Source: Mycobacterium paragordonae (GTDB taxonomy: Bacteria > Actinomycetota > Actinomycetes > Mycobacteriales > Mycobacteriaceae). From it: 64,000 nt of DNA. The stretch lies in NCBI RefSeq assembly GCF_003614435.1, contig NZ_CP025546.1, forward strand, positions 5,084,001-5,148,000. The letters run 5' to 3'. This document shows positions 2,037-50,268 of the stretch, in pieces. The first letter of the stretch is position 1; each line of letters starts with the position of its first letter. Made by a program: the position numbers and the translations under genes. The notes under the pieces were generated by a model that saw only the letters and a program-made list of their open reading frames with translations, was not told the DNA's origin and made no database searches.

Positions 2037-4595
2037 ATGGGCGAGATCGTGGGGCTGGTGGTGCGCGGGGGTGGGCGCAGTTGGCAGGTGGCTCCGGGGC
2101 GGGCGTGGACGGTGGGGCGTTCGGGTGAGTCCGATATTCAGTTGGACAATCCGCGGATCTCGCGGGTGCATGCGGTGTTTGAGCCCACCGAGTCGGGGTG
2201 GGTGTTGTCCAATCGCAGCAGCAACGGCATGTATGTGCGGGGCGCGCGGGTCGAACAGGTGCTCATCGACGAGGAGCCGGTGACGGTCGTTCTCGGGTCG
2301 GTCACCTCGGGCCAGGAGATCGAACTGGCTCCTGATGCGGGACAGCCGGTTTCGATCGGGGAGGCAACGACCATGGTGGGGCAGTTTCCGCCATTGCCAT
2401 TGCCATTGCCGTTGTCGTCGCCGCCCGAGTCGCTGGCGAAGACCACCGAGATCCCGCTGCCGCCGCTGTCCACGGCGTCAGGACAGACGGCTTCAGGGCA
2501 GACGGCTCCGTGGGAATCGACTTCGGGGCAGACGGCGCCGGGGCAGACGGCGTCGGGGCAGACGGCGTCGGTGCGGACGCCGACTGCGGTGCACGCGATC
2601 GATCAGGCGACGGTGAGCATCGGGCGGGCCCCGGAGAACACCGTGGTCCTGCACGACCTGCTGGTCTCACGCCGCCACGCCCTGCTGCGGCGCAGCAGCG
2701 CCGGCTGGGAACTGATCGACAGCCACTCCGCCAACGGCACCTACGTCAACGGCACCCGCATCACCCGCGCCCTGATCGGCCCCGACGACATCGTCGGCAT
2801 CGGCCACCAACTACTGCACCTGTCCGGCGACCGCCTCGTCGAATACATCGACACCGGCGACATCTCCTATGAAGCCGCCCACCTGCACGTCGAAACCGCC
2901 AACGGCACAGTCCTACTCGATGACGTCAGCTTCGTCCTGCCCCAACGCAGCCTGCTGGCCGTCGTGGGCCCCTCCGGCGCCGGCAAATCCACCCTGCTGG
3001 GCGCCCTGACCGGATTCCGCCCCGCCACCACCGGCACCGTGCGCTACGACGACCGCGACCTCTACGACAACTACCCCGAACTACGCCACCGCATCGGCTT
3101 CGTCCCCCAAGACGACATCCTGCACACCCCCCTAACCGTGCGCCGCGCCCTGAACTACGCCGCCCGCCTGCGCTTCCCCCAAGACGTCACCGCCACCGAA
3201 CGCCAACACCGCATCGACGAAGTCCTCACCGAACTCGGCCTGGCCGCCCACGCCGACCAACGCATCGACTCCCTCTCCGGCGGACAACGCAAACGCACCA
3301 GCGTCGCCCTGGAACTGCTCACCAAACCCTCCCTGCTGTTTTTGGACGAACCCACCTCCGGCCTGGACCCCGGCTACGAAAAATCCGTCATGCAAACCCT
3401 GCGCACCCTGGCCGACGACGGACGCTCCGTGGTCGTGGTCACCCACAACATCGCCCACCTCAACATGTGCGACCGCCTGCTGGTCCTGGCCCCCGGCGGA
3501 CGCCTGGCCTACTTCGGCCCACCCCAACAAGCCCTGGCCTACTTCGGCTGCACCGACTTCGCCGACCTGTTCATCCTGCTCGAAAACGACACCGACACCG
3601 ACTGGACCACCCGCTACACCAACTCCCCCCTGCACGCCGCCTTCACCCCCACCGAACACCCACCCACCACCCCCACCCCGACCCCGACCCCGGCCAACAA
3701 ACCCAAACCCAAAGCCCAACAAAGCCCCGCAGCCCAATTCGCCATCCTGGCCCGCCGCTACCTCGCCGTCATCGCCGCCGACCGCCAATACACCCTGTTC
3801 CTCCTCGCCCTGCCCCTGCTGCTGAGCCTGTTCACCTACGCCGTCCCCGGCGACGCCGGTCTCTCCCTGGCCAACGCGATCACCCAGCAGTCCAAGCAAC
3901 CCACCCAGTTGCTCGTGCTGCTCATCATCGGCGGCGCGCTGATGGGGTGTGCCGGCTCCATCCGCGAGATCGTCAAGGAGCAGGCCATCTACCGCCGCGA
4001 GCACGGCATCGGGCTGTCCGGCGGCGCCTACCTCGCCTCCAAACTCGTTGTGCTGGGCGCAATCTCGGCCCTACAAGGATTGATCCTCGGCTTCCTCGGG
4101 GTCGCTTTCCTGCCGCCGCCCGACGACTCGCTGCTGCTGCAGTCCGGCAGCACCGACATGCTCCGGCATGTCGGTTCGGCCGAGATCGCGGCGGCCGTCG
4201 TCGCCGTGACCGTGGTGTCGATGATCCTGGGCCTGCTCATCTCCGCACTGATCAGCAACGCCGACCGCGGCATGCCCCTGCTCGTCGTCGTCGTCATGGC
4301 CCAACTCGTGCTCTGCGGCGGCATGTTCGCCGTCAACGACCGCATCCCGCTCGAACAACTCGCCTGGCTCTCCCCCTCCCGCTGGGCCTACGCCATGGCG
4401 GGCTCTTCGCTCGGGGTGAACTACATCCGCCTCACCGACCCGGACCCGATGTGGACTCATGACCGCGCGCACTGGCTGACGGCGCTGGGCATGTGTGCGG
4501 CGTTGGGAGTGGTGATGGTGATACTGCTGGCGGCGCGGTTGTACGGTCTCGATCGGCACCGCAGGGCCCGCAAGCGACCCAGGCCGTTTGCTTAG
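2037..4595 (+). CDS. FHA-FHA-ABC transporter, Rv1747-like (copy 1)
   Basis: An 852-residue ABCG-type half transporter with two N-terminal phosphothreonine-binding FHA domains. FHA1 (about 10-90) shows GRSGESDIQL, SRVHA and SNGMYV; FHA2 (about 190-265) shows IGRAPENTVV, SRRHAL and NGTYVNG. The ATPase has Walker A GPSGAGKST (about 311), signature LSGGQRKR (about 413), Walker B LLFLDEP (about 435) and a VVTHN switch. The C-terminal third is an ABC2-type membrane domain with about six helices. The linker between the FHA domains carries several SGQTA-like units, a plausible Thr phosphorylation target. In M. tuberculosis Rv1747 is phosphorylated by PknF and is implicated in export of cell-envelope lipids; substrate here is inferred. 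A good GGAGG site precedes the ATG. The core is nearly identical in DNA to the second copy at 5967-8516. Confidence 0.92.
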   Translation: MGEIVGLVVRGGGRSWQVAPGRAWTVGRSGESDIQLDNPRISRVHAVFEPTESGWVLSNRSSNGMYVRGARVEQVLIDEEPVTVVLGSVTSGQEIELAPDAGQPVSIGEATTMVGQFPPLPLPLPLSSPPESLAKTTEIPLPPLSTASGQTASGQTAPWESTSGQTAPGQTASGQTASVRTPTAVHAIDQATVSIGRAPENTVVLHDLLVSRRHALLRRSSAGWELIDSHSANGTYVNGTRITRALIGPDDIVGIGHQLLHLSGDRLVEYIDTGDISYEAAHLHVETANGTVLLDDVSFVLPQRSLLAVVGPSGAGKSTLLGALTGFRPATTGTVRYDDRDLYDNYPELRHRIGFVPQDDILHTPLTVRRALNYAARLRFPQDVTATERQHRIDEVLTELGLAAHADQRIDSLSGGQRKRTSVALELLTKPSLLFLDEPTSGLDPGYEKSVMQTLRTLADDGRSVVVVTHNIAHLNMCDRLLVLAPGGRLAYFGPPQQALAYFGCTDFADLFILLENDTDTDWTTRYTNSPLHAAFTPTEHPPTTPTPTPTPANKPKPKAQQSPAAQFAILARRYLAVIAADRQYTLFLLALPLLLSLFTYAVPGDAGLSLANAITQQSKQPTQLLVLLIIGGALMGCAGSIREIVKEQAIYRREHGIGLSGGAYLASKLVVLGAISALQGLILGFLGVAFLPPPDDSLLLQSGSTDMLRHVGSAEIAAAVVAVTVVSMILGLLISALISNADRGMPLLVVVVMAQLVLCGGMFAVNDRIPLEQLAWLSPSRWAYAMAGSSLGVNYIRLTDPDPMWTHDRAHWLTALGMCAALGVVMVILLAARLYGLDRHRRARKRPRPFA

Positions 4596-4720: not shown

Positions 4721-5455
4721 ATGAAACTGAAGCTCTGGTCCCGCGCCGGCGTCGGCGCCACAGCCGCGGTAATGGTGACGGCGCTCGTGCTGGCCGGCTG
4801 CGGGAGTCCCAAGAACAACAGCTCGGGCAGCGGATCCAACGCGCCCAACGCCGACGCCGCGAGCACCGTCAAACAAGCTGCGGACGCGATGCGCAAAGTC
4901 ACCGGAATGCACGTCAGCCTCACCGTGCAGGGAGCGGTGCCCAACCTCGAGGTGACCAAGCTCGACGGTGACGTCTCCAATACTCCGCAGACCGTGGCCA
5001 ACGGGACGGCGACGCTGACCGTCGGCAAGAGTCCCGTCGACTCGAAATTCGTCTTCGTCGACGGCCACCTCTACTCCGACGTCGCCGAGCCCGGCAAATT
5101 CACCGATTACGGCAACGGCGCATCGATCTATGAGGTCTCCACGCTGCTCGACCCTGATAAGGGTCTAGCCCACCTGCTGGCCAATCTGCAGAACCCCAAG
5201 GTGGGCGGCAACGAACAGGTCAACGGCGTCGCCACCACGAAGATCACCGGCACGTCGTCCACCGACGACGTCGCCACCCTGGCCGGATCGCGCCTGAGCC
5301 CGCAGAACGCGCCACCCACCCCGACCAGTGTCTGGATCGCCTCGGACGGCTCCTACCACCTGGTCAAGATCGAGATCACCCCGGTTGAGAACGGAACGGT
5401 GTCGATGACCTTGTCGGAATGGGGCAAGCAGGTCACCGCGACCAAGCCGGTTTAG
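4721..5455 (+). CDS. lprA: Lipoprotein LprA (LppX/LprG/LprA family)
   Basis: A 244-residue secreted lipoprotein. The first 25 residues form a lipoprotein signal peptide ending in the lipobox LAGC, so Cys at about 28 should be acylated. The rest fits the LppX_LprAFG fold, a half-barrel with a hydrophobic pocket that carries (glyco)lipids in this family. Length matches my memory of M. tuberculosis LprA (Rv1270c, a TLR2 agonist). Start at ATG 4721 is set by the GGAG six bases upstream; an ATG six bases earlier overlaps the ribosome site. Followed on the same strand by the Rv1269c-like gene, the same pair as in M. tuberculosis, but here flanked on both sides by FHA-ABC transporters. Confidence 0.88.
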   Translation: MKLKLWSRAGVGATAAVMVTALVLAGCGSPKNNSSGSGSNAPNADAASTVKQAADAMRKVTGMHVSLTVQGAVPNLEVTKLDGDVSNTPQTVANGTATLTVGKSPVDSKFVFVDGHLYSDVAEPGKFTDYGNGASIYEVSTLLDPDKGLAHLLANLQNPKVGGNEQVNGVATTKITGTSSTDDVATLAGSRLSPQNAPPTPTSVWIASDGSYHLVKIEITPVENGTVSMTLSEWGKQVTATKPV

Positions 5456-5511
5456 GCCGGTCCAGCAGCTCCGTGGAACCCGAACTTCTTCAGTCGCCGA
5501 AAGGAACCATC

Positions 5512-5901
5512 ATGGGATTGACCGCTTTTCGGGCGCGCTTTCCAAGAGGCGCGGTGGTCGCACTGACCAACGTCGCGGCGGTGACGGCGACGCTGATCGC
5601 GCTGGCCCCCGCCGCGCACGCCGACGGCCAATACGGCGCGATCGCCTACTCGCCGTCGGGGCAGCTGTTCGGCCGGACCAAAGACGCCCCATCGCGCGCC
5701 GCCGCGGAAAGCGGCGCGATGGGTGCCTGCGGCAAGTCCGACTGCAAGGTTCTGGTCTCCTTCTCGGAATGCGGTGCGGTCGCCGAGAACAACGCCGGAG
5801 ACCACGCCGGCGGGTACGGCTCAACCCTGCTCAGCGCCGAGCAGGACGCCATGAAGCGGCTGGGCACCGCGGGATGGATCGGCACCTGGCTCTGCAACTA
5901 A
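5512..5901 (+). CDS. Small secreted DUF4189-type protein, Rv1269c-like
   Basis: A 129-residue protein with a Sec signal peptide (hydrophobic core about 14-32, cleavage probably after AHA) and a compact mature domain of about 90 residues. It begins with YGAIAYSPSG and contains four Cys (CGKSDC, SECG, WLCN), which suggests two disulfides. This is the pattern of the DUF4189 family, whose mycobacterial members include Rv1269c and Rv1813c. The biochemical role is unknown. It lies 56 bp after lprA with an AAAGGA ribosome site and is probably co-transcribed with it. There is no other obvious family assignment. Confidence 0.85.
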   Translation: MGLTAFRARFPRGAVVALTNVAAVTATLIALAPAAHADGQYGAIAYSPSGQLFGRTKDAPSRAAAESGAMGACGKSDCKVLVSFSECGAVAENNAGDHAGGYGSTLLSAEQDAMKRLGTAGWIGTWLCN

Positions 5902-5966
5902 AGTCGATGCGCCCGCCCGCCCGTACGCTCACCGGGGCGGCGTCGTCGGTGTAGCGGAGGCGTGGG

Positions 5967-8516
5967 ATGGACCGTGGGATGGACGACGTGCTGGGGGTGT
6001 CGGGCCCGGTTGGGTTACAGGTGCGCGGGGGTGGGCGCAGTTGGCAGGTGGCTCCGGGGCGGGCTTGGACGGTGGGGCGTTCGGGTGAGTCCGATATTCA
6101 GTTGGACAATCCGCGGATCTCGCGGGTGCATGCGGTGTTGGAGCCCACCGAGTCGGGGTGGGTGTTGTCCAATCGCAGCAGCAACGGCATGTACGTGCAC
6201 GGCGCGCGGGTCGAACAGGTAACCATCGACGAGGAGCCGGTGACGGTGGTGTTCGGCTCGGCGACCTCCGGACAGGTGGTGGAGTTCGAGCCCGGAGCTA
6301 CCGGTGCGCCGGGACCGGTGTCGATCGGGGAGGCGACCACGACCGTGGCCCCGCTGCCGACCGGTCCTGAGGTCGGCGCCGGGAACACCGAGATCCCGGC
6401 CCCGCCGCTCCCGACGGGTCCTGAGGTCGGCGCCGAGACGACCGAGATCTCGGTCCCGCCGCTTCCGACAACCTTCACCTCGGAACTGGGGCTGGGGGAG
6501 CTGACCACGTCCGGGCAGACGGCGTCGGTGCGGACGCCGACCGCGGTGCACGCGATCGATCAGGCGACGGTGAGCATCGGGCGGGCCCCGGAGAACACCG
6601 TGGTCCTGCACGACCTGCTGGTCTCACGCCGCCACGCCCTGCTGCGACGCAGCAGCGCCGGCTGGGAACTGATCGACAACCACTCCGCCAACGGCACCTA
6701 CGTCAACGGCACCCGCATCACCCGCGCCCTGATCGGCCCCGACGACATCGTCGGCATCGGCCACCAACTACTGCACCTGTCCGGTGACCGCCTCGTCGAA
6801 TACATCGACACCGGCGACATCTCCTATGAAGCCGCCCACCTGCACGTCGAAACCGCTAACGGCACAGTCCTACTCGATGACGTCAGCTTCGTCCTGCCCC
6901 AACGCAGCCTGCTGGCCGTCGTGGGCCCCTCCGGCGCCGGCAAATCCACCCTGCTGGGCGCCCTGACCGGATTCCGCCCCGCCACCACCGGCACCGTGCG
7001 CTACGACGACCGCGACCTCTACGACAACTACCCCGAACTACGCCACCGCATCGGCTTCGTCCCCCAAGACGACATCCTGCACACCCCCCTAACCGTGCGC
7101 CGCGCCCTGAACTACGCCGCCCGCCTGCGCTTCCCCCAAGACGTCACCGCCACCGAACGCCAACACCGCATCGACGAAGTCCTCACCGAACTCGGCCTGG
7201 CCGCCCACGCCGACCAACGCATCGACTCCCTCTCCGGCGGACAACGCAAACGCACCAGCGTCGCCCTGGAACTGCTCACCAAACCCTCCCTGCTGTTCTT
7301 GGACGAACCCACCTCCGGCCTGGACCCCGGCTACGAAAAATCCGTCATGCAAACCCTGCGCACCCTGGCCGACGACGGACGCTCCGTGGTCGTGGTCACC
7401 CACAACATCGCCCACCTCAACATGTGCGACCGCCTGCTGGTCCTAGCCCCCGGCGGACGCCTGGCCTACTTCGGCCCACCCCAACAAGCCCTGGCCTACT
7501 TCGGCTGCACCGACTTCGCCGACCTGTTCATCCTGCTCGAAAACGACACCGACACCGACTGGACCACCCGCTACACCAACTCCCCCCTGCACGCCGCCTT
7601 CACCCCCACCGAACACCCCCCCACCACCCCCACCCCGACCCCGACCCCGGCCACCAAACCCAAACCCAAAGCCCAACAAAGCCCCGCAGCCCAATTCGCC
7701 ATCCTGTCCCGCCGCTACCTCGCCGTCATCGCCGCCGACCGCCAATACACCCTGTTCCTCCTCGCCCTGCCCCTGCTGCTGAGCCTGTTCACCTACGCCG
7801 TCCCCGGCGACGCCGGCTTGTCACTCACCAAGGCCATCGAGAAGGTATCGACCCAGCCGGGTCAGCTGCTGGTGCTATTGATCATCGGCGGAGCCTTGAT
7901 GGGCTGCGCTTCCTCGATCCGCGAGATCGTCAAGGAACAGGCCATCTACCGCCGCGAGCACGGCATCGGGCTGTCCGGCGGCGCCTACCTCGCCTCCAAA
8001 CTCGTTGTGCTGGGCGCAATCTCGGCCCTACAAGGATTGATTCTCGGCTTGCTCGGGGTCGCCTTCCTACCACCCCCGGATCAGTCGGTGGTCATACCCT
8101 GGCCGCGGATCGAAGTGGCGGTGGCGGTCGTCGCCGTGACCGTGGTGTCGATGATCCTGGGCCTGCTCATCTCCGCACTGATCAGCAACGCCGACCGCGG
8201 CATGCCCCTGCTCGTCGTCGTCGTCATGGCCCAACTCGTGCTCTGCGGCGGCATGTTCCCGGTAAAAGACCGCATCCCGCTCGAACAACTCGCCTGGCTC
8301 TCCCCCTCCCGCTGGGCCTACGCCATGGCCGCCTCGACCGTCGACCTCAACGATCTGCGGCGCACGGCCGGCGGCGACCAGGATCCGATGTGGGATTACG
8401 ACGTCAGTAGCTGGTTGATCGCCGCCGCGGCCTGCCTCGTGCAGGCGGCCGTGCTGGTGCTGTTCACCGTGCTGCGGCTGAGGCGCATGGGACCGCAACG
8501 AAGGGCGAAGAGATAA
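5967..8516 (+). CDS. FHA-FHA-ABC transporter, Rv1747-like (copy 2)
   Basis: An 849-residue paralogue of the transporter at 2037-4595 with the same order: FHA1, linker, FHA2, ATPase (GPSGAGKST, LSGGQRKR, LLFLDEP) and an ABC2-type membrane domain. The N-terminal 16 residues, the FHA linker, one extracellular loop and the C-terminus differ between copies, while about 1.3 kb covering FHA2, the ATPase and the first membrane segment is almost identical in DNA. The linker here carries two copies of a PLPTGPEVGA...TEI unit instead of the SGQTA units of copy 1. The start at ATG 5967 follows a GGAGG. It lies 118 bp upstream of pknH on the same strand, so PknH is the natural candidate kinase. Substrate unknown. 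Confidence 0.92.
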   Translation: MDRGMDDVLGVSGPVGLQVRGGGRSWQVAPGRAWTVGRSGESDIQLDNPRISRVHAVLEPTESGWVLSNRSSNGMYVHGARVEQVTIDEEPVTVVFGSATSGQVVEFEPGATGAPGPVSIGEATTTVAPLPTGPEVGAGNTEIPAPPLPTGPEVGAETTEISVPPLPTTFTSELGLGELTTSGQTASVRTPTAVHAIDQATVSIGRAPENTVVLHDLLVSRRHALLRRSSAGWELIDNHSANGTYVNGTRITRALIGPDDIVGIGHQLLHLSGDRLVEYIDTGDISYEAAHLHVETANGTVLLDDVSFVLPQRSLLAVVGPSGAGKSTLLGALTGFRPATTGTVRYDDRDLYDNYPELRHRIGFVPQDDILHTPLTVRRALNYAARLRFPQDVTATERQHRIDEVLTELGLAAHADQRIDSLSGGQRKRTSVALELLTKPSLLFLDEPTSGLDPGYEKSVMQTLRTLADDGRSVVVVTHNIAHLNMCDRLLVLAPGGRLAYFGPPQQALAYFGCTDFADLFILLENDTDTDWTTRYTNSPLHAAFTPTEHPPTTPTPTPTPATKPKPKAQQSPAAQFAILSRRYLAVIAADRQYTLFLLALPLLLSLFTYAVPGDAGLSLTKAIEKVSTQPGQLLVLLIIGGALMGCASSIREIVKEQAIYRREHGIGLSGGAYLASKLVVLGAISALQGLILGLLGVAFLPPPDQSVVIPWPRIEVAVAVVAVTVVSMILGLLISALISNADRGMPLLVVVVMAQLVLCGGMFPVKDRIPLEQLAWLSPSRWAYAMAASTVDLNDLRRTAGGDQDPMWDYDVSSWLIAAAACLVQAAVLVLFTVLRLRRMGPQRRAKR

Positions 8517-40426: not shown

Positions 40427-43400
40427 CTACGGGTTATCCGAGCCGTTCGTACCGGTCGCGACCGCGTTGTCCGCGCTGATCGGCCCCGGCGGCAGGTTCT
40501 GGGCATAGACGTCGCCCTCGCTACCGTCGCCGCCGGTGTGGCTGCTACCGCCAAAGCCGCCGTTGCCGCCATTGGCGGTGGCGTTATCCGCATGGGGTTG
40601 GTCGGCAGCCGTCCCAGTGGAGTTAAGCCCGGCCCCGATGTTAGCGTCGGCCCCCTTGCCGCCGACGCTGCCCACACCGTCACCGGTACCGCCGTGGCCA
40701 CCCAAGGCGTGACCGTTTTGAGCAGAGGTGTTCGCGCCCAGTGCGACGATCCGGCTGGATCCAGGGTTGCCCGTTGCGTCGCTGCCGCCGCCCGTACCAC
40801 CATTCAGCCCGTCACCACCGGCACCGCCTTCAGACGTGCCGCTGGCCACAGCGTTGAGCCCGCCGGCGGCGATAGACGACTTGCCGCCGTTGCCACCGTG
40901 ACCACCGCCGGTCGCGTTGCCGCCGGCGCCGCCGGTCGACGTACCGCTGGCCGTCCCGCCGTCGCCGCCTGCTGTTGGGTTATCGAAGAACTGAGTCGTC
41001 TTGCCGCTCTGGATATCAGAGCTCTGGCCGTTACCGCCGACGCTGTTCAGGCCGGTACCCGTACCGCCGGCACCACCGGTGGACTGACCGTACGAGGTGC
41101 CCAGCGCTCCGGCCTCAACCTCACCGAAGCTGCCGTTTCCACCGTGACCGCCGCTGATGCCGGCTCCGCCGTTGCCGCCTGTGGCCACGGCTGGGTGGCC
41201 GACACCGCCGATGGTGCCGCCGGCAGCGCCTGAGGTGCCGTCGACAACCAGGTAGCCGCCGCCACCGGAGCCGCCGAGGCCGGTGGCACCGTCGCCGGAT
41301 CCGCCGTTCCCGCCGATGGCGGTGCCCCCGATCACACTGCCGCCGTGAAGAGCGCCCGTGCTGGGATCGAAGCCGATGACGGCCGACCCGCCGGCGCCAC
41401 CTGCTCCACCGTTGGTACCAGTGCCGCCGTTGCCACCGGTGGCGTGGCTGTCAGTGATGGCGCCGCCCCCGGCCGCGGAGGCAATGCCGTCGCCGGCCGC
41501 GCCGCCGTGGCCGACGCCACCGGCCCCGCCGTTCCCACCGGTGGCGGTGCTGCCTGTGACGGAGCTTCCTGCGCCCGCGGCGGCGATGGTGCCGGCGCCA
41601 CCGCTGACGCCGGCCGCGCCGGCTCCGGTCGCTGTGCCGTCACCGCCTACCCCGCCGATCCCGCCGGTCGCGGTGCTACCGGTAATGGTCCCACCGCCGC
41701 CAGTAACGAAGCTCCCGGCGCCGCCGCCACCACCAGCGCCACCTGCGAAATTGGTCCCGCCGTGCCCACCCTGGCCGCCGGCGCCGCCGACCTGGGTGCT
41801 GTTAGAAACGTTTTGCACGGTGAAGTCGGCGGGTGTGGCGCCGTTGCCGCCGGCACCGCCAGTGCCACCGACGCCACTGCCGCCGACGCCGCCGGTGCCG
41901 CCGTGACCGCCGATACTGCCGATGCCGGTGATGGTCGTGGGGTTAGCTGCCGATTGCAGTTGGACATTGGCATTACCACCGAGACCACCGGCACCACCCT
42001 TCGCGCCATTCGTTCCGTTGATGCCGCCGTCACCGCCGTCGCCACCGATCGCAGTGCTGTTGGAAATATGTGAGCCTGCCGGGTTAACCGCTTGTACCCA
42101 GGCCCGACCGCCTTTGCCGCCGTCACCACCGTTGCCATCGCCCCCAGAGCCGCCCGTCAAGACGTTGTCACCGGTGACGGTCCCCCTGAACGCGCTCAAA
42201 TTGGCGCTATTACCGTCGCCGCCTTTGGCGCCGGCAGCGCTCGCGTTGCCGCCATCACCGCCGGTAACTGTGCCGGAAGCTTCGGCGCCAGTGCCGCCGG
42301 CCAAGATACTTCCACGGTCGCCATTGCCGCCGATTCCGCCGGAGGTGGCGTTACCACCGCTTCCGCCTGTGGCGGTACCGTGTGCGGTCCCACCGCCCCC
42401 GGGAACTTCTGGCCGGGCGCTCTCGATAATGCCATTCAGACCATTACCACCGATGCTGCCGACATCGGTACCCCTACCGCCATTACCACCGGTCGCGCTG
42501 CCGTAGGAGACGCCACCCGCACCGTCAGCCTCGAGTTCACCAAAGCCCGCATTGCCGCCGGTCCCGCCGGCAATGCCAGCTCCACCGTTGCCACCCTTCG
42601 CAATGGCAGCTCCAGCGGCGCCACCGACGGTGCCGCCGGCGGAGTCGACTACCAGGTACCCACCGCCGCCGTTGCCGCCTTTAGCGCCGGCAGTGCCGCC
42701 GTCGCCGCCGACGCCGCCGATTGCTGTGCCAATCGCGGAGCTGCCTGCACCGTTCGCAACGATGGCGGCACCACCGCCGGTGCCACCGTGGCCGCCCGCT
42801 GCAGTGAGGGTGCCACCACCACCGGCGCCGCCGACACCGCCCGTGGCCGTGCCAGACGCAGTGCCGGTGGCTGTGCCCTGGATGATCGCACCGCCACCAC
42901 CGCCACCGCCCCCACCACCAAGGCCGGGCGCGGCCGCGTTGCCGGCGGCGCCCACGCCGCCAGCACCGCCGGCACCTGCCGTTGCGCCGGTGCCGATGGC
43001 CGCTCCGGCGCCGCCCATACCGCCGTCGCCGCCGTCCCCGTGGACAGTCCCCGTCCCGCCAGTGCCGCCGGTGCCGCCGTAGCCGCCGTTACCTTTGCTG
43101 ACAGTCGAGTTGAAGTCGCCTGTAGCGCCAACACCACCCTTGCCGCCCTCACCACCGAAGGTAGTCGCGGAACCGCCGGTTCCAGCCGCGCCGGCATGTC
43201 CGGTGCCGACCGCACCGCCGGTACCGGCAGCTCCACCGGCGCCGCCGGTGGCATAAGCAGTGCCGGCGTTGCCACCATTGCCGCCATGGCCACCGGTGCC
43301 CAAGCTGAGAGCTGAGTTGAAGTCGCCCGTCGCGCCGGTGCCCCCGGTGCCGCCGACCCCGGCGTTACCACCGTTACCACCGTTACCGCCGTCACCGTTT

Positions 43401-44383
43401 GCACCCGAAGCGCCGAACAAGCCGCCGGCGCCGCCGCCGCCACCGCTGCCTCCGTTGCCCGCGGCGCCTCCGATGCCGCCGTTGCCACCGTCGCCGCCAA
43501 CGCCCGAACCAGCGGTGAAACTGCCGGTCAAACCGGTGCCCCCAGTGCCCCCGGTGCCGCCGTTACCCCCGACCCCGCCGACACCGCCCGCACCCCCGGT
43601 GCCAAAGAGCGCGTGCGCGACACCGCCGGCGCCGCCGGTCCCCCCTTGGCCGCCCGTCGCGCCGTTTCCACCAACGGCCCCGACGTTGTTGGTGAGGCCA
43701 ATGCTGCCCATCCCACCGGCACCGCCTACACCACCAGCCCCGCCGTTACCCCAAAGCCAGCCACCGGCACCACCGGCCCCGCCGGTGCCCCCCGTGCCAC
43801 CGTTTGAACCGTTGACCCCGGCATATCCGACACCACCGGCCCCGCCAGTGCCGCCATGGCCGAACAGGAAGGCGGACCCACCGGCCCCACCGGTGCCGCC
43901 GGTGGTAGTGGCCGTGCCGGCCACGCCGGAGCCACCATTACCTCCGTTGCCCCACAGCCAACCGCCGTCGCCGCCCCGTTGGCCAGTGCCTGGGGCACCA
44001 TTGGCGCCGTCACCGATGAGAGGGCGGCCGGTCAAGAGCTGGCTGGGCGCGTTGATCACACCCATTATGTCCTGCTCCAGCGTCTGCAGCGGCGAAGCGG
44101 CAGCAGCATCAGCCGCCCCATACATCAGTCCACCCGAGCTCAAGGTCTGCACGAACTGGTCATGAAACAACGCCATCTGAGAACTGAGTGCTTGATACTC
44201 CTGGCCGAAATTGCCGAATAAGGCAGAAATCGCCGCTGACACCTCATCCTGGGCCGCGACCGCCAGCTGCGTGGTCGAGCTCGCAGCTGCGGCGTTGGCC
44301 GCCTGGATCGACGACCCGAGACCGCTCAAATTTGAAGACGCGGCGGCCAAGGCATCAGGTGCTGCGATCACGTAAGAGGACAT
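40427..44383 (-). CDS. PE_PGRS family protein with atypical C-terminal repeats
   Basis: A 1318-residue protein. PE domain at 1-95 ([20 protein letters not shown]), linker with [18 protein letters not shown], then ordinary Gly-Gly-x repeats to about residue 430. From there the repeats change: Gly-rich turns alternate with short Ser/Thr/Val/Ala stretches such as [20 protein letters not shown] and SSIAAGG, at roughly 35-60 residue spacing. Two long sections (with [11 protein letters not shown](V/L)EA, SYGxxTGG and a SNG-type segment) repeat in the same order, pointing to an internal duplication. It ends in a less Gly-rich tail ([19 protein letters not shown]). ATG 44383 has a GGAG seven bases upstream. 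It borders the AT-rich parA region. Confidence 0.9.
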
Positions 44384-44531
44384 CTGTAACTCCAGTAGCT
44401 ATGCGGTGACACAAACTCTGAGCGGTCTCGCTCGAACGTTTGGAACAATACGCCCGGCGCTTCATTTTGCAGCCATTTTCAGGAATTTATTTTTTGCCAC
44501 TTCTTAACCCACAACTATGCGTTTATAGAAG

Positions 44532-44567
44532 TACATATGCGTATTCATATGGATGTACATATGGCTA
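44532..44567. repeat. Three 12-bp iteron-like repeats
   Basis: Units tacatatgcgta (44532-44543), ttcatatggatg (44544-44555) and tacatatggcta (44556-44567) each contain CATATG at exactly 12-bp spacing (44534, 44546, 44558). Each CATATG is itself palindromic. Such phased short repeats are typical of centromere or operator sites of small DNA-binding proteins. Assignment as a partition site is an inference from the nearby parA cassette. Confidence 0.6.
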
Positions 44568-44759
44568 TGTTTACCGCTGGAGACTATGACTTATTTAACT
44601 GCATCCTGCAACGAATATACTTCGCCACATTAATTTGCTGCTATCGAGACCTTCAGCTCTAGATTTAGCTGTCTGACGCTGTTTTAGATGTTTGGATTGC
44701 ATGGCTTCTAGTTAGCTGAATACCCCTGCCTCCGGTATAGAGATATGTCGTAACAACGA

Positions 44760-44773
44760 TAGTGTCGACACTA
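44760..44773. repeat. 14-bp perfect palindrome
   Basis: TAGTGTCGACACTA is fully self-complementary. It lies in the AT-rich stretch between the PE_PGRS gene and the parA cassette, about 335 bp past the end of the RHH gene. It could be an operator for a dimeric regulator; it is not the chromosomal parS sequence (GTTTCACGTGAAAC). Confidence 0.5.
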
Positions 44774-45108
44774 AGGTTGCAGTCGCGAGTTGAAGGAAAG
44801 CGACCACCGGCACGGGTCCGCAGCGCAGTTTACGGACAGTCGGATGTTGACGCCGGCCAGAGCAGCGACGACTCCATTGCTGACATTTACGGAGGCCGCA
44901 GAATGCCGCAGTTATTGACGTAGACGTTGAATTTCGTGGCGGTTGCTCAGCTTTTCAACCGCCGTATCACGGGTTCAAGCGGATCGAACCGCTGCCCGAC
45001 GCTGGGCGACGACGCTGCGACCGGCCCTTGAGCGCTACCAGTGGTGCAGCCCTTCGGCGCAGGCGCTACCGCTGGGCGCGGACCCGAAAACCGGGCCGGC
45101 TGAAACCA

Positions 45109-45570
45109 CTAATCGAGGTCCGGGCAGTTCTGCAGGACGGCCGTCACAATCAGCGCTTGCAAGCTCGTGTCCTGATCCGCCGCCAACAGCTTGAGGGTCC
45201 GGTGCACAGCCCGGGGCAAGTCGAGCGTGGTCCGCACACCACCGCTCTCGCCGCGGTGCGCCATCGACGCACGCGCCAGTGCTTCGGGGTCTTGGAGCCC
45301 GGCGCTGATAGCGGCCCGAATCAGGTCACCCATGGTGGTGTCCAATTCCAGCGCACGCCGCTTAAGGGAACTACGCGTCGTCGGGAGCAGGTGCAGCGTT
45401 GTGCGCATCGCCTCGTAAGCCATTTGCGACGGCGGCGGTAGCGGAGTGCTCCGAACGGCATCTTCGTAACCTTGGAACGCACTCGCGGCCCGGACTCTCG
45501 CCGCGGCCCCAGTGGGCCGGCGGATGACCGCATTCCGCACCGCACTGGCTGTCGAAAGCTCTTCCGTCAT
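45109..45570 (-). CDS. Small protein with two RHH-like segments, partner of ParA
   Basis: A 153-residue protein. The N-terminal 50 residues are Ala/Arg-rich and probably disordered. Two segments follow the ribbon-helix-helix pattern of a strand plus two helices: residues 55-92 (MRTTLHLLP, then SLKRRALELDTTMGDLIRAA) and 112-147 (VRTTLDLPRAVHRTLKLLAA, then DQDTSLQALIVTAVL). Its ATG overlaps the ParA stop (ATGA, 45567-45570), the usual coupling of a ParA ATPase with its centromere-binding protein. I infer a ParG/omega-type DNA-binding role; it may also repress its own operon. A two-RHH single chain would be unusual. I know no named homologue. Confidence 0.75.
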   Translation of the reverse strand: MTEELSTASAVRNAVIRRPTGAAARVRAASAFQGYEDAVRSTPLPPPSQMAYEAMRTTLHLLPTTRSSLKRRALELDTTMGDLIRAAISAGLQDPEALARASMAHRGESGGVRTTLDLPRAVHRTLKLLAADQDTSLQALIVTAVLQNCPDLD

Positions 45571-46175
45571 ATTGCCGCGGCTCCCTCCATCCAGGTCGCC
45601 GTCGTCAGTGCGTCGAACACGTCTGCGTAGTCCCCCAAGTGCGCCGGCAAACCGCGGCCAAAGGCGCGCTCGAACTCGGTCCGGCACCGCACGATGCTCT
45701 GCAGGACTGGTGCGTTCTCTGCCGTCAGCGCACGCGGCATCTCCAGCGCCTCAACCTTGCGCATGTCGACCATCGTCAGCAGGATCGTCGTGGGGCGGTG
45801 CTGGGTAATATCCAGGGTTGGCCACATCCGGTCGATGTCCGCGGCGCGAGGACCCGTCGGAATGATGACCAGGTCGGCTACATCGACCGCCGCGTCGATA
45901 GCGGCAGCGACTCCGGGCGGGCTGTCGACCAGAACCAGTTCGCCAGATTCACTCGTCAACGCCCGCACGCCCCCCGCGGTACCCGGGCTAACTTCAAAAG
46001 GCAACGGCGTGCCCCAGTGTGCTGCCCGATCAGCCCAAGACGACGCCGACCCCTGCGGATCGGCATCAATGACACGCACCGGAACTCCGCGCTGTGTTGC
46101 AGCCGCGGCCAAGAACAGCGCTGTTGTCGTCTTCCCTACGCCGCCCTTGGTGTGTACAAGTGACCAAATCACCAT
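45567..46175 (-). CDS. ParA-family partition ATPase
   Basis: A 202-residue ParA/MinD-type P-loop ATPase, the short form without an N-terminal DNA-binding domain (type Ib). The deviant Walker A KGGVGKTT starts at residue 10, the switch region is DADPQGSASSWADR and Walker B is ELVLVDSPPGV. Plasmid type Ib ParA proteins of this size pair with a small RHH protein, as here. The ATG at 46175 puts the Walker A motif at the N-terminus as in the family; the reading frame is open further upstream but without family similarity. This is not the chromosomal parA near the origin, which pairs with a large ParB. Expected role: DNA segregation or positioning of some cargo. Confidence 0.88.
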   Translation of the reverse strand: MVIWSLVHTKGGVGKTTTALFLAAAATQRGVPVRVIDADPQGSASSWADRAAHWGTPLPFEVSPGTAGGVRALTSESGELVLVDSPPGVAAAIDAAVDVADLVIIPTGPRAADIDRMWPTLDITQHRPTTILLTMVDMRKVEALEMPRALTAENAPVLQSIVRCRTEFERAFGRGLPAHLGDYADVFDALTTATWMEGAAAI

Positions 46176-46863
46176 TCTCGCCCCCGCCCCCCAACTAGAG
46201 ACGCGCCTCTTCGCGCGTGACAGAACTCCCCCGGAAGGCACCGTCGACAACTCGTCCAATGCCGGCGTCGCCCCCGCCAGGTCGCACACGTCGCCACTCC
46301 TGCTCACCCCACGACGGCGAAGGACGGTCCCACCCGGAGTCCCAGCGATCAGGCACTCCGATCACGAAGCACGCCAAATTATCCTCCCCTCGGCGCCGAG
46401 TACCGCCAGAACATTTGAATTATGCATGAATTTTGACACCGCGGACCGAGTCCACCCGAAAAAAGCGAAAACTATTCCAAAAGTAGTGAAAATAACCGGC
46501 TTACCGACCCCAGGTTTCCACTCTCGGACGGTGCGCGGTCCGCCCGAACACCAGCTCGGACTGAAGCGTCGCAAGGTGCCGAAGTCGCCCGATTATCCTG
46601 CGAGCGAAGGCATCTCGATGCTCAGCGGCAGAGTGGCAACGAACTCGAGCACCCTGGACACGGAATTTGCGCGCGAGATAATTTTCGCCAGACGGACAGC
46701 TCGCTTTTAATCATTAAATTTACGAATTAATAATGTGGTTAATCATTGCGGCTCGGAGGTTTCGGTTGACGACGCACGTCCGGGCCGCATCAGCGACTCT
46801 GGCCGGCCGCCGGAGCTGTCTGCCAACGCCGCCGTGTCATACCCTTCGCCTACCGTTACAGCT
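46176..46863. other. Intergenic region between parA and the helicase
   Basis: No supported gene in 688 bp. The part from about 46370 to 46750 is AT-rich in patches. TTAATCATT occurs twice as a direct repeat (46707-46715 and 46739-46747), with AATTAATAATG between. It should hold the divergent promoters of the parA operon and the nuclease-helicase gene. Short reading frames such as 46362-46574 (-), with one hydrophobic stretch, are not convincing. Confidence 0.55.
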
Positions 46864-49800
46864 GTGTTCCTCACCGCCGGCAACATCGTCTACAGCGCAT
46901 CGGATCTCGCGTCCGCCGCGCGATGCGAGTACGCGCTGCTGCGGGATTTCGATGCCAAGCTCGGCCGCGGCCCGGCCGTGTCCGTCGAAGACGAATTACT
47001 TGCGCGCACAGCCACTCTCGGTGACGACCACGAGCGCCGCCGGCTGGACCGGCTGCGCGCCCGGTTCGGGGACGAGATCGCCGTCATCGGCCGTCCCGCC
47101 TACACCCACGCCGGACTGACGGCCGCGGCCGACGCCACCCGGCGCGCCATCGCCGACCGCGCCCCGGTGGTCTATCAGGCAGCCATGTTCGACGGCCGCT
47201 TCGTCGGTTTCGCCGACTTCTTGATCCGTGACGGTGAGCGCTACCGCGTCACTGACACCAAGCTGGCGCGCTCGCCGAAGGTCACCGCGCTGTTGCAGCT
47301 GGCGGCTTACGCCGACGCACTCACGGCGGCGGGCGTGCCCATAACCCCGGACGCCGAACTGGAACTCGGTGACGGCACGGTGGTCCGCTACCGCCTCAGT
47401 GACCTGATGCCGGTCTACCGGACCCAGCGCGCGCAGTTACAAACGCTGCTGGACGACCACCACGCCGCGGGCCGCGCCGTGCGCTGGGAGGACGCCGGAG
47501 TGCAGGCCTGCTTCCGATGCCCGCTGTGCACCGAACAGTTGCGCGCACTCGACGACCTGCTGCTGGTTGCCGGCATGCGAGTCAGCCAGCGCGAGAAGCT
47601 AATTGACGCAGGCATCACGACTATCGGCGAGCTGGCCGCCCGCAGCCGGCCGGTGCCCGGTCTGGGCGCCCAAGCCCTGGGCAAGCTGACCGCGCAGGCC
47701 AAACTGCAGATACGCCAACGTGATAGCGGTGCCCCGCAGTACGAGGTGGCCGATCCGCAGCCGCTGGCGCTGTTGCCCGAACCGAATCCGGGTGACTTGT
47801 TCTTCGACTTCGAAGGCGACCCGTTGTGGACCGCAGACGGAAACCAGTGGGGGCTGGAGTATTTGTTCGGCGTCCTGGAAATGGGGCCGGCGGGGAAATT
47901 CCGCCCCCTGTGGGCGCACGATCGCATCGAGGAGCGAGCTGCACTCAAGCAGTTCCTGGCCATGGTGGCCAAGCGCCGTAAGCGCTACCCGAACATGCAC
48001 ATCTACCACTACGCGGCCTACGAGAAGACGGCGTTGCTCCGGCTCGCCGGGCGCTACGGCGTCGGTGAGGACGAGGTCGACGACTTGCTGCGCAACGGGG
48101 TACTGGTCGACCTTTATCCGTTGGTGCGCAAGAGCATTCGAGTGGGCGCCGAAAGCTTGAGCCTTAAGGCACTGGAGCCGCTGTACATGGGCACCCAGTT
48201 GCGCTCGGGTGATGTCACCACCGCCACCGATTCCATCACCTCCTACGCGCGATACTGCGAACTGCTGGCCGCGGGCCGCGCTGACGAAGCGGCGACGGTG
48301 CTCAAGGAAATCGAGGAGTACAACCACTACGACTGTCTGTCCACCCGCAAGCTGCGGGACTGGTTGCTGATTCTGGCCTGGGAATCGGGGGTTACGCCGA
48401 TCGGTGTCCAGCCGGTCCCCGAACGCGACAGCATCAAAGACCACGATCCACTGGCCGTCACATTGACGACGTTCACCGGCGATGCCGCTGCCGGTGAACG
48501 CACGCCAGAACAGACCGCCGTCGCCTTGATCGCCGCCGCGCGCGGGTATCACCAACGCGAGGACAAGCCGTTCTGGTGGTCGCACTTCGACCGGCTGAAC
48601 TACCCCGTCGACGAATGGTCGGACAACACAGACGTTTTCATCGTCGACTCCGCGTCCGTCGTTACCGACTGGCACACCCCGCCGCGGGCCCGCAAACCGC
48701 AGCGAAGGTTGAAGCTGAAAGGCGAACTGGCGCGCGGCGACCTGAGCCACGAGGTGTTCGCACTCTACGAACCGCCGGCTCCGGCCGGCATGGCCGACGA
48801 TCCTGACCGCCGCGGCGCGGGCCGCGCTGAGATCGTCGGCGTCGACGACCCCAGCCTGCCCGCCGAGGTGACCATCATCGAACGAACCGGCAAGGACGGC
48901 AACACCTTTCACCAGCTGCCGTTCGCGCTCACGCCCGGACCGCCGGTGAAGACGACCGCGCTGCGCGAGTCCATCGCGACGACGGCACAAGCCGTCGCGG
49001 ACGGGTTACCGGGCCTGCCCCGCACCGCGCTCCTCGACCTGCTGCTGCTCCGCGCGCCGCGCACCCACGGGGATGCGGCGTTGCCGCGCAGCGACGACAC
49101 CATCGCCGACATCACGTCCGCCACGCTGAGCCTGGATTCGTCCTACCTCGCGGTCCACGGACCCCCGGGGACCGGCAAGACGCACACCGCCGCCCGCGTG
49201 ATCAAGACGCTGGTCACCGAACACTCGTGGCGTGTCGGCGTGGTCGCGCAATCACACGCCGCAGTGGAGAACGTGCTGGACTGTGTGATCGACGCCGGCC
49301 TCGATCCGGCGCTCGTCGCCAAGAAGGGCACCACCGGCGCGCGGTGGCAGGAGATCGACGCGAGCAAGTATGCGGCTTTCATCGCCGACCACGCGGGCTG
49401 TGTAATCGGTGGTACGGCTTGGGATTTCGCCAACGCACAGCGGGTACCGCCGGGCTTTCTGGACCTGTTGGTGATCGACGAGGCGGGGCAGTTCTGTCTG
49501 GCCAATACCATCGCGGTGGCGCCGGCGGCCACCAATCTGTTGCTGCTCGGGGATCCGCAGCAACTGCCGCAGGTCAGTCAGGGCACCCATCCGGAGCAGG
49601 TCGACATCTCCGCGCTGGAATGGCTGGTCGACGGACAGCAGACGCTGCCCGACGAGCGCGGCTACTTCCTGGACCTGTCCTACCGCATGCACCCGCGGGT
49701 GTGCGCCGCCGTCTCGGCGCTGTCCTATGAAGGCCGGCTGCGTTCGCACGCCGAGCGCACCACCGCGCGGCAGCTGGCCGGTCATGAGCCGGGCGTGCGT

Positions 49801-50268
49801 GTGCTTCCCGTTCGCCATCAAGGCAATTCGATCGACAGCCCCGAAGAGGCCGCTGCCATCGTCGAGGAGATCGGGCGGATGCTCGGGCGGCCGTGGACCG
49901 ATGAGCACGGCACTCGCCCGCTGGCCGCCCCGGATGTGCTGGTGCTCGCACCGTACAACGCGCAGGTGACGCTGATCCGTCAGCGGCTCGCGCAGGCCCG
50001 CCTGTCCGGGGTCCGGGTCGGTACCGTCGACAAGTTCCAGGGCGGGCAGGCCCCGGTCGTCTTCATATCCATGACGGCGTCATCGATCGACGAAGTTCCC
50101 CGCGGTATCTCGTTTCTGCTCAACCGCAACCGGCTCAACGTCGCCGTCAGCCGAGCCCAGTACGCGGCCATCATCGTGCGGTCGGAGTCGCTGACCCAAT
50201 ACCTGCCGGCGACCCCGGCCGGCCTGGTGGACCTGGGCGCCTTCCTGGCGCTCACCCGGGGGCAGTGA
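46864..50268 (+). CDS. RecB-like nuclease / DEDD exonuclease / SF1 helicase fusion, Rv1251c-like
   Basis: About 1134 residues in three parts. The N-terminal half of 400 residues resembles the TM0106 RecB-like (PD-(D/E)XK) nucleases; an early Cys (AARCEY) and C-x2-C-x2-C (CFRCPLC, about residue 213) may bind an Fe-S cluster. A DEDD/RNase H-like exonuclease domain follows with LFFDFEGDPLW, HIYHYAAYEKTALLRL and YNHYDCLSTRKLRDWL. The C-terminal third is an Upf1-like SF1 helicase: Walker A GPPGTGKTHTAA, LLVIDEAGQF, LLLLGDPQQLPQV, TVDKFQGGQAPVV and NRNRLNVAVSRAQ. Role: nucleic-acid repair or RNA/DNA processing, not established. GTG 46864 gives a length near Rv1251c; the upstream extension to GTG 46735 has no family support. 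Confidence 0.87.
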   Translation: MFLTAGNIVYSASDLASAARCEYALLRDFDAKLGRGPAVSVEDELLARTATLGDDHERRRLDRLRARFGDEIAVIGRPAYTHAGLTAAADATRRAIADRAPVVYQAAMFDGRFVGFADFLIRDGERYRVTDTKLARSPKVTALLQLAAYADALTAAGVPITPDAELELGDGTVVRYRLSDLMPVYRTQRAQLQTLLDDHHAAGRAVRWEDAGVQACFRCPLCTEQLRALDDLLLVAGMRVSQREKLIDAGITTIGELAARSRPVPGLGAQALGKLTAQAKLQIRQRDSGAPQYEVADPQPLALLPEPNPGDLFFDFEGDPLWTADGNQWGLEYLFGVLEMGPAGKFRPLWAHDRIEERAALKQFLAMVAKRRKRYPNMHIYHYAAYEKTALLRLAGRYGVGEDEVDDLLRNGVLVDLYPLVRKSIRVGAESLSLKALEPLYMGTQLRSGDVTTATDSITSYARYCELLAAGRADEAATVLKEIEEYNHYDCLSTRKLRDWLLILAWESGVTPIGVQPVPERDSIKDHDPLAVTLTTFTGDAAAGERTPEQTAVALIAAARGYHQREDKPFWWSHFDRLNYPVDEWSDNTDVFIVDSASVVTDWHTPPRARKPQRRLKLKGELARGDLSHEVFALYEPPAPAGMADDPDRRGAGRAEIVGVDDPSLPAEVTIIERTGKDGNTFHQLPFALTPGPPVKTTALRESIATTAQAVADGLPGLPRTALLDLLLLRAPRTHGDAALPRSDDTIADITSATLSLDSSYLAVHGPPGTGKTHTAARVIKTLVTEHSWRVGVVAQSHAAVENVLDCVIDAGLDPALVAKKGTTGARWQEIDASKYAAFIADHAGCVIGGTAWDFANAQRVPPGFLDLLVIDEAGQFCLANTIAVAPAATNLLLLGDPQQLPQVSQGTHPEQVDISALEWLVDGQQTLPDERGYFLDLSYRMHPRVCAAVSALSYEGRLRSHAERTTARQLAGHEPGVRVLPVRHQGNSIDSPEEAAAIVEEIGRMLGRPWTDEHGTRPLAAPDVLVLAPYNAQVTLIRQRLAQARLSGVRVGTVDKFQGGQAPVVFISMTASSIDEVPRGISFLLNRNRLNVAVSRAQYAAIIVRSESLTQYLPATPAGLVDLGAFLALTRGQ

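Follow-up and report, generated by a model that had tools for sequence, protein, structure and literature searches.

What does a plasmid-type partition gene pair do in a bacterial chromosome? The question is raised by a locus of Mycobacterium paragordonae in which parA and a small gene coding for an RHH protein lie between two genes that we take to be lprE and Rv1251c (the latter flanking and helicase-like), names carried over from the original prediction made on this DNA. We analysed the locus within a stretch of 64,000 nucleotides, the window (Table 1). We consider it likely that the locus is a plasmid-type partition cassette (type I with an RHH-ParB, formerly called type Ib) residing on the chromosome and, as far as its sequence can tell, apparently complete, with ParA, a tandem-RHH protein and one putative centromere array. 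The introduction of a 2026 paper gives type-I HTH-ParB systems as the only partition type on bacterial chromosomes (PMC13245405), and it is against this statement that an RHH-type cassette with a putative centromere, kept in the chromosome of five genomes, has to be set. The parts are of known kinds; in the searches made we found no description of their combination, an RHH-type parABS that has its array and a probable single-chain RHH protein and is kept on a chromosome. With it, the benefit that a host draws from a plasmid segregation machine can be put to the test.

Table 1. Features of the cassette and its neighbours (positions in the window)
Feature	Position	Strand	Remarks
PE_PGRS gene	40427..44383	-	PF00934, 101.4 bits; same strand as cassette; starts ~130 bp beyond array
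Putative parS-like centromere	44512..44573		CATATG-type half-sites 12 bp apart; motif and shuffles
Spacer, array to RHH gene	44574..45108		no recognisable second-cassette remains (nothing below E 0.3)
RHH gene (putative parB)	45112..45570	-	153 aa; stop TAG 45111-45109
ATGA overlap	45567..45570	-	parA stop and RHH start
parA	45570..46175	-	202 aa; deviant Walker-A ATPase, ParF-like; stop TGA 45569-45567
Region upstream of parA	46176..46734		array seen there in plasmid-type copies is absent
Helicase-like gene	46735..50268	+	locus anchor in relatives

The original prediction described a ParA coupled through ATGA to a 153-residue protein with two RHH-like segments, and its coordinates proved exact. 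The 4-base overlap is common to 17 of the 22 cassette copies compared (among them the broken copy L038 and two duplicates, L034 and L121), with a GTG start in some, and the two genes are presumably co-transcribed. The ParA has the Walker A sequence KGGVGKTT at residues 10-17, no N-terminal HTH domain and a ParF fold across residues 1-195, being ParF-like over 188 residues; it also matches PHROG 164 and NF041546 (E 3e-32, 111.7 bits, below the model cut-off of 180). The RHH gene follows parA directly, as in a type Ib operon. Two RHH units are indicated in the small protein both by Pfam PF20605, which matches it in two stretches (37.8 bits, cut-off 27.2), and by the AlphaFold2 model, with strand-helix-helix units at 54-91 and 112-148. 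Its N-terminal tail is basic, has low pLDDT, carries IRRP and is at least 90% conserved at V15-P19 (V15-I16-R17-R18-P19) and G21-A24 among 44 sequences.

PF20605 is named Antitox_RHH, as would suit the antitoxin of a toxin-antitoxin pair. The partner gene, however, is no toxin gene and codes for an intact ParA ATPase, and of six plasmid records examined around ParA, five show a separate PIN toxin with its small partner, lying divergently beside parA. We rejected this reading, which is extremely improbable.

That one chain with two RHH units could act as a pseudo-dimer had been proposed from the sequence, and structure prediction agrees: the RHH protein is predicted to be a single-chain RHH pseudo-dimer whose model matches TraY of plasmid F best. 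TraY is a relaxosome protein acting at oriT, similar in fold with a sequence identity of ~10%, and to our knowledge it is not a partner of a ParA. ParG (TP228) and omega (pSM19035) are short one-RHH chains that dimerise, so that the ParF-ParG and delta-omega systems have one RHH per chain whereas the window protein has two. Chromosomal ParABS systems differ further, using an HTH-ParB with a CTPase domain where this cassette has an RHH protein. A centromere-binding RHH protein that is likely to work as a single chain would allow the two halves of the recognition ribbon to be examined one at a time.

A third part of the cassette had been overlooked: the AT-rich stretch on the RHH side contains a repeat array, 62 bp long, which starts 535 bp beyond the RHH gene. 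AT-rich repeats bracket plasmid-type cassette copies, and 15 flanks taken from eight such copies served to train a 16-nt motif, with the duplicates L034 and L121 dropped and all chromosomal copies excluded. The six best matches of the 64-kb window all fall in the array (23.2, 17.3, 13.8, 12.5, 8.5 and 8.2 bits), the best match elsewhere reaching 7.7 bits, and the 64 kb contain CATATG just three times (44534, 44546 and 44558). The sequence TATRGANGYACATATG is found without mismatch at only two places in the 7.2-Mb genome, both in the array, and at three further places with two mismatches; with up to three mismatches, it gives 40 matches genome-wide against 63 for a control read backwards. All five intact chromosomal copies have motif clusters downstream of their RHH gene, starting at +535, +881, +214, +849 and +408 bp, with scores reached by none of 300 shuffles in each copy. 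The 40 related loci that lack the cassette (272,621 bp in all, six of the loci being shorter than intended) showed no cluster, and their best single match scored 13.7 bits. Centromere-like repeats near the operon, which are typical of type Ib, are therefore present as far as the sequence goes.

The repeat period was also followed independently of the motif. Pooled self-match peaked at a lag of 12 both in the chromosomal arrays (z 5.6) and in the near plasmid-type flanks (z 9.1), while distant plasmid-type flanks showed lag 8 first (8.3) and lag 12 second (6.2). Among half-site pairs at most 40 bp apart, 18 of 28 are spaced by 12, 24 or 36 bp in plasmid-type flanks and 5 of 12 in chromosomal arrays, three of those five being in the window. 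The irregular half-site spacing in the copies L028 to L031 counts against a complete cassette, as does the missing upstream array: in none of the five chromosomal copies do the 350 bp before parA contain a match of at least 8 bits, whereas five plasmid-type copies scored alike have clusters on both sides (their flanks were in the training set). On plasmids, the upstream array is probably an operator and may also serve as a second centromere. Since it is absent on the chromosome, the regulation of parA must differ from that on plasmids.

The position of the array also permits another reading, in which the RHH protein, with or without ParA, was co-opted to bind the array as an operator and to control the adjacent PE_PGRS gene. 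RHH proteins are often repressors, and in the window the PE_PGRS start has the array ~130-190 bp upstream of it. Beyond the array, a PE gene comes next in four of the five chromosomal loci, where the array could be an operator, a point that counts against a centromere. In L029 (G045), though, the array is followed directly by lprE and the PE gene lies only beyond it; moreover ParA would be needless for repression, yet parA has a lower dN/dS than the RHH gene. We regard such a regulator as unlikely.

How did the cassette reach this place? The original prediction saw it as an insertion into an otherwise conserved gene order, and the comparison bears this out: at E 0.01 neither ParA nor the RHH protein has a match in any of 40 related loci, 21 of which have the end of the lprE match and the extrapolated helicase query start no more than 35 bp apart. 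The placement between lprE and the helicase gene is seen directly only in the window, in L029 and in the relic L038; lprE was not found in the stretch of DNA examined of L028 and L030, and the L031 contig ends before it. The absence of an adjacent tRNA extends to the whole 64-kb window. For the claim that no replication gene or integrase is adjacent, the scope is that of the query proteins: one plasmid rep, resolvase, PIN toxin and small partner gave no match in the window or the other chromosomal loci (E 0.05). In a near relative, L072 (G203, 5238-7001), the gap between lprE and the helicase gene holds a transporter gene on the opposite strand, 62% identical over 468 residues to the window's own transporter. 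It seems that insertions enter this gap again and again.

A plasmid origin had been proposed, and it is supported by the plasmid copies. Relatives of the RHH protein were detected in 12 of 72,556 plasmid records (11 Mycobacterium and 1 Mycolicibacterium, all 12 typed mobilizable), the match covering at least 80% of the query in 10, and relatives of ParA in 173, of which 12 have 60-80% identity and 161 less. In the near copies, found on pVT2 (NC_005016), pJCM17324 and M. chimaera plasmids, ParA is 73-76% and the RHH protein, annotated there as "hypothetical protein", 62-64% identical to the window's; the ATGA overlap is shared, as are repeat arrays of the same motif (these flanks trained it). 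For the best plasmid matches, DNA similarity spans both genes and ends at the gene ends. The pVT2-type plasmids differ in that arrays flank the pair on either side, a PIN toxin pair stands divergently next to it and Walker A reads KGGVAKTT, whereas the window has one distant array on a chromosome and KGGVGKTT. Phage relatives are more remote. The ParA proteins of cluster A phages (RedRock, Lokk) are 44-48% identical to the window's among the 20 listed of 189 records, and the RedRock repeats are of 8 bp, against 12 bp here. A search of 50,697 phage records with the RHH protein gave no match at E 1. Lokk ParB, with 91 aa and a sub-threshold PF20605 match (153 aa and 37.8 bits for the window protein), was the only phage ParB compared by BLASTP and gave no alignment; a distant common origin may remain.

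Within the genus, we searched 396 genomes and found five intact chromosomal copies, in five genomes that each represent one Mycobacterium species, all with open reading frames and all adjoining the same helicase gene; the four others are 65-80% identical to the window proteins. The cassette is rare and patchy among mycobacteria, and not an ordinary feature conserved at this locus in all of them, a situation that the original prediction had named as speaking against it. A sixth copy, L038 (G007, M. asiaticum 1081914.2, 2643-3451), is broken: its ParA lacks the first half (102-190 left), and the RHH frame (1-62) passes at about residue 62 into a PGRS-like sequence rich in glycine, apparently through recombination.

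Is the cassette, then, an inert relic, that is, a plasmid fragment that was inserted and slowly decays, with an array that merely came along? This idea, raised by the original prediction, can draw on that clear relic, on the 40 loci lacking the cassette, on the absent upstream array and on dN/dS ratios somewhat higher than in plasmid-type copies. By NG86, with ten pairs per gene among the five chromosomal copies, dN/dS is 0.09-0.19 for parA and 0.12-0.31 for the RHH gene, compared with 0.05-0.11 and 0.10-0.23 in seven plasmid-type copies. These values are nonetheless far below 1, four other chromosomal copies are open, only the G007 copy is truly broken, and arrays of putative sites are kept although they begin anywhere between 214 and 881 bp from the RHH gene. 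We consider decay improbable; the cassette appears to be kept up and not dead, which suggests that the host uses it. Taken together, the parts, their conservation and an array found downstream of the RHH gene in all five chromosomal copies and absent from the 40 cassette-free loci indicate that this is probably a chromosome-resident RHH-type parABS and not just a relic. The patchy distribution, the broken copy and the discordant histories of cassette and flanks count against this explanation.

Those histories differ as follows. In both trees the chromosomal copies fall on one side of a branch, with moderate support (73/69 for ParA, 92/92 for the RHH protein), but the window groups with L029 and L031 in the cassette trees and with L028 and L030 in the helicase tree. 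Between the window and L028, dS is 0.37 for the helicase gene and 0.29 for the transporter gene, and 0.96 for parA and 0.78 for the RHH gene (values near 1 being close to saturation), so that divergence from L028 at silent sites is 2 to 3.3 times as great in the window cassette as in the flanking genes. A single vertical insertion is insufficient to explain this, and one has to assume chromosome-to-chromosome exchange, repeated insertion or tandem copies that stay hidden. Outside L028/L030, hidden tandem copies may explain the discrepancy; searches of the spacers for remains of a second cassette gave nothing below E 0.3. The L028/L030 pair itself (G006/G047) fits vertical descent, its spacer DNA being 77% identical over 619 bp and its cassette dS (0.66 and 0.58) somewhat above that of the flanks (0.48 and 0.38). 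Because the histories are discordant, part of the purifying selection may date from plasmid life.

If the cassette works as a parABS, each RHH chain would fold as its own pseudo-dimer and bind about one 12-bp repeat, several chains lining or coating the array. Their flexible basic tails, with the conserved IRRPTG, would reach nucleoid-bound ParA and stimulate its ATPase as an arginine finger, and the array would thereby be tethered to the nucleoid and moved over it. We infer these steps (binding of the array, ATPase stimulation and movement) from the parts of the cassette.

What the host would gain can be stated only tentatively. The most likely role, possible though by no means probable, is that the chromosomal centromere and both Par proteins disturb the inheritance of small plasmids using the same system. 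The cassette would then be a domesticated anti-plasmid module, a suggestion that we hold just as tentatively: with a centromere on the chromosome, its own ParA and a single-chain ParB, incoming plasmids of the same specificity would segregate badly. The array and both proteins fit centromere-based incompatibility, which a single chromosomal site may exert only weakly, and a patchy, changeable distribution is what would be expected of a defence trait if the anti-plasmid reading were true. According to passages of PMC10954446, the integrating element SGI1 carries plasmid-type, parS-like sites that can destabilise a plasmid; itself lacking a Par system, it relies on that of the plasmid, whose ParB is modelled with an HTH, whereas the window has its own ParA and RHH protein. 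A passage of PMC7157519 adds that phage parB genes are thought to diversify, avoiding incompatibility.

A doubtful alternative is that the cassette positions its own locus by a tether to the nucleoid or pole, or acts in trans to stabilise resident plasmids that have no par genes of their own. That it positions a chromosomal or protein cargo was also an idea of the original prediction, and it may be so. ParA-family proteins do place chromosomes and other cargo, and the genome has four further contigs that might be served. One of them, however, the 17,187-bp contig C5, has its own diverged ParA-RHH pair (L032, 60% and 42% identical) and no CATATG, which makes help from the chromosome unlikely in its case; as to positioning, the array is a single site ~1.6 Mb from a ParA-like match at C1:6,725,880, presumably the ordinary chromosomal ParA. 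In the C5 flanks no repeat period stood out, and they hold four of the five GCATCTA/TAGATGC words of the contig, two of them 12 bp apart. With these words and without CATATG, the specificity of C5 would be a different one, which would keep it out of reach of the disturbance proposed above. Its first RHH strand reads RTTVTY, against RTTLHL in the window, hinting that this strand could set specificity. No second near-type copy was detected in the five genomes with a chromosomal cassette, which says little as few such plasmids are in the sample.

Some further observations concern the copies themselves. For the RHH and ParA relatives P0003/P0111 and P0135/P0197, a longest contig of 316585 is listed each time, and one of 184277 for P0165/P0166; the identical lengths suggest tandem cassette copies in some mycobacteria. 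In L028 and L030, the opposite strand of the spacer between RHH gene and array is open over stretches of 198 and 142 residues that resemble each other in sequence, perhaps an unrelated small gene. Finally, KGGVGKTT is present in all five chromosomal ParA copies and in the distant L032, L035, L037 and L117, and KGGVAKTT in the near plasmid-type copies and in L036 and L120, making the Walker A variant a possible marker of lineage.
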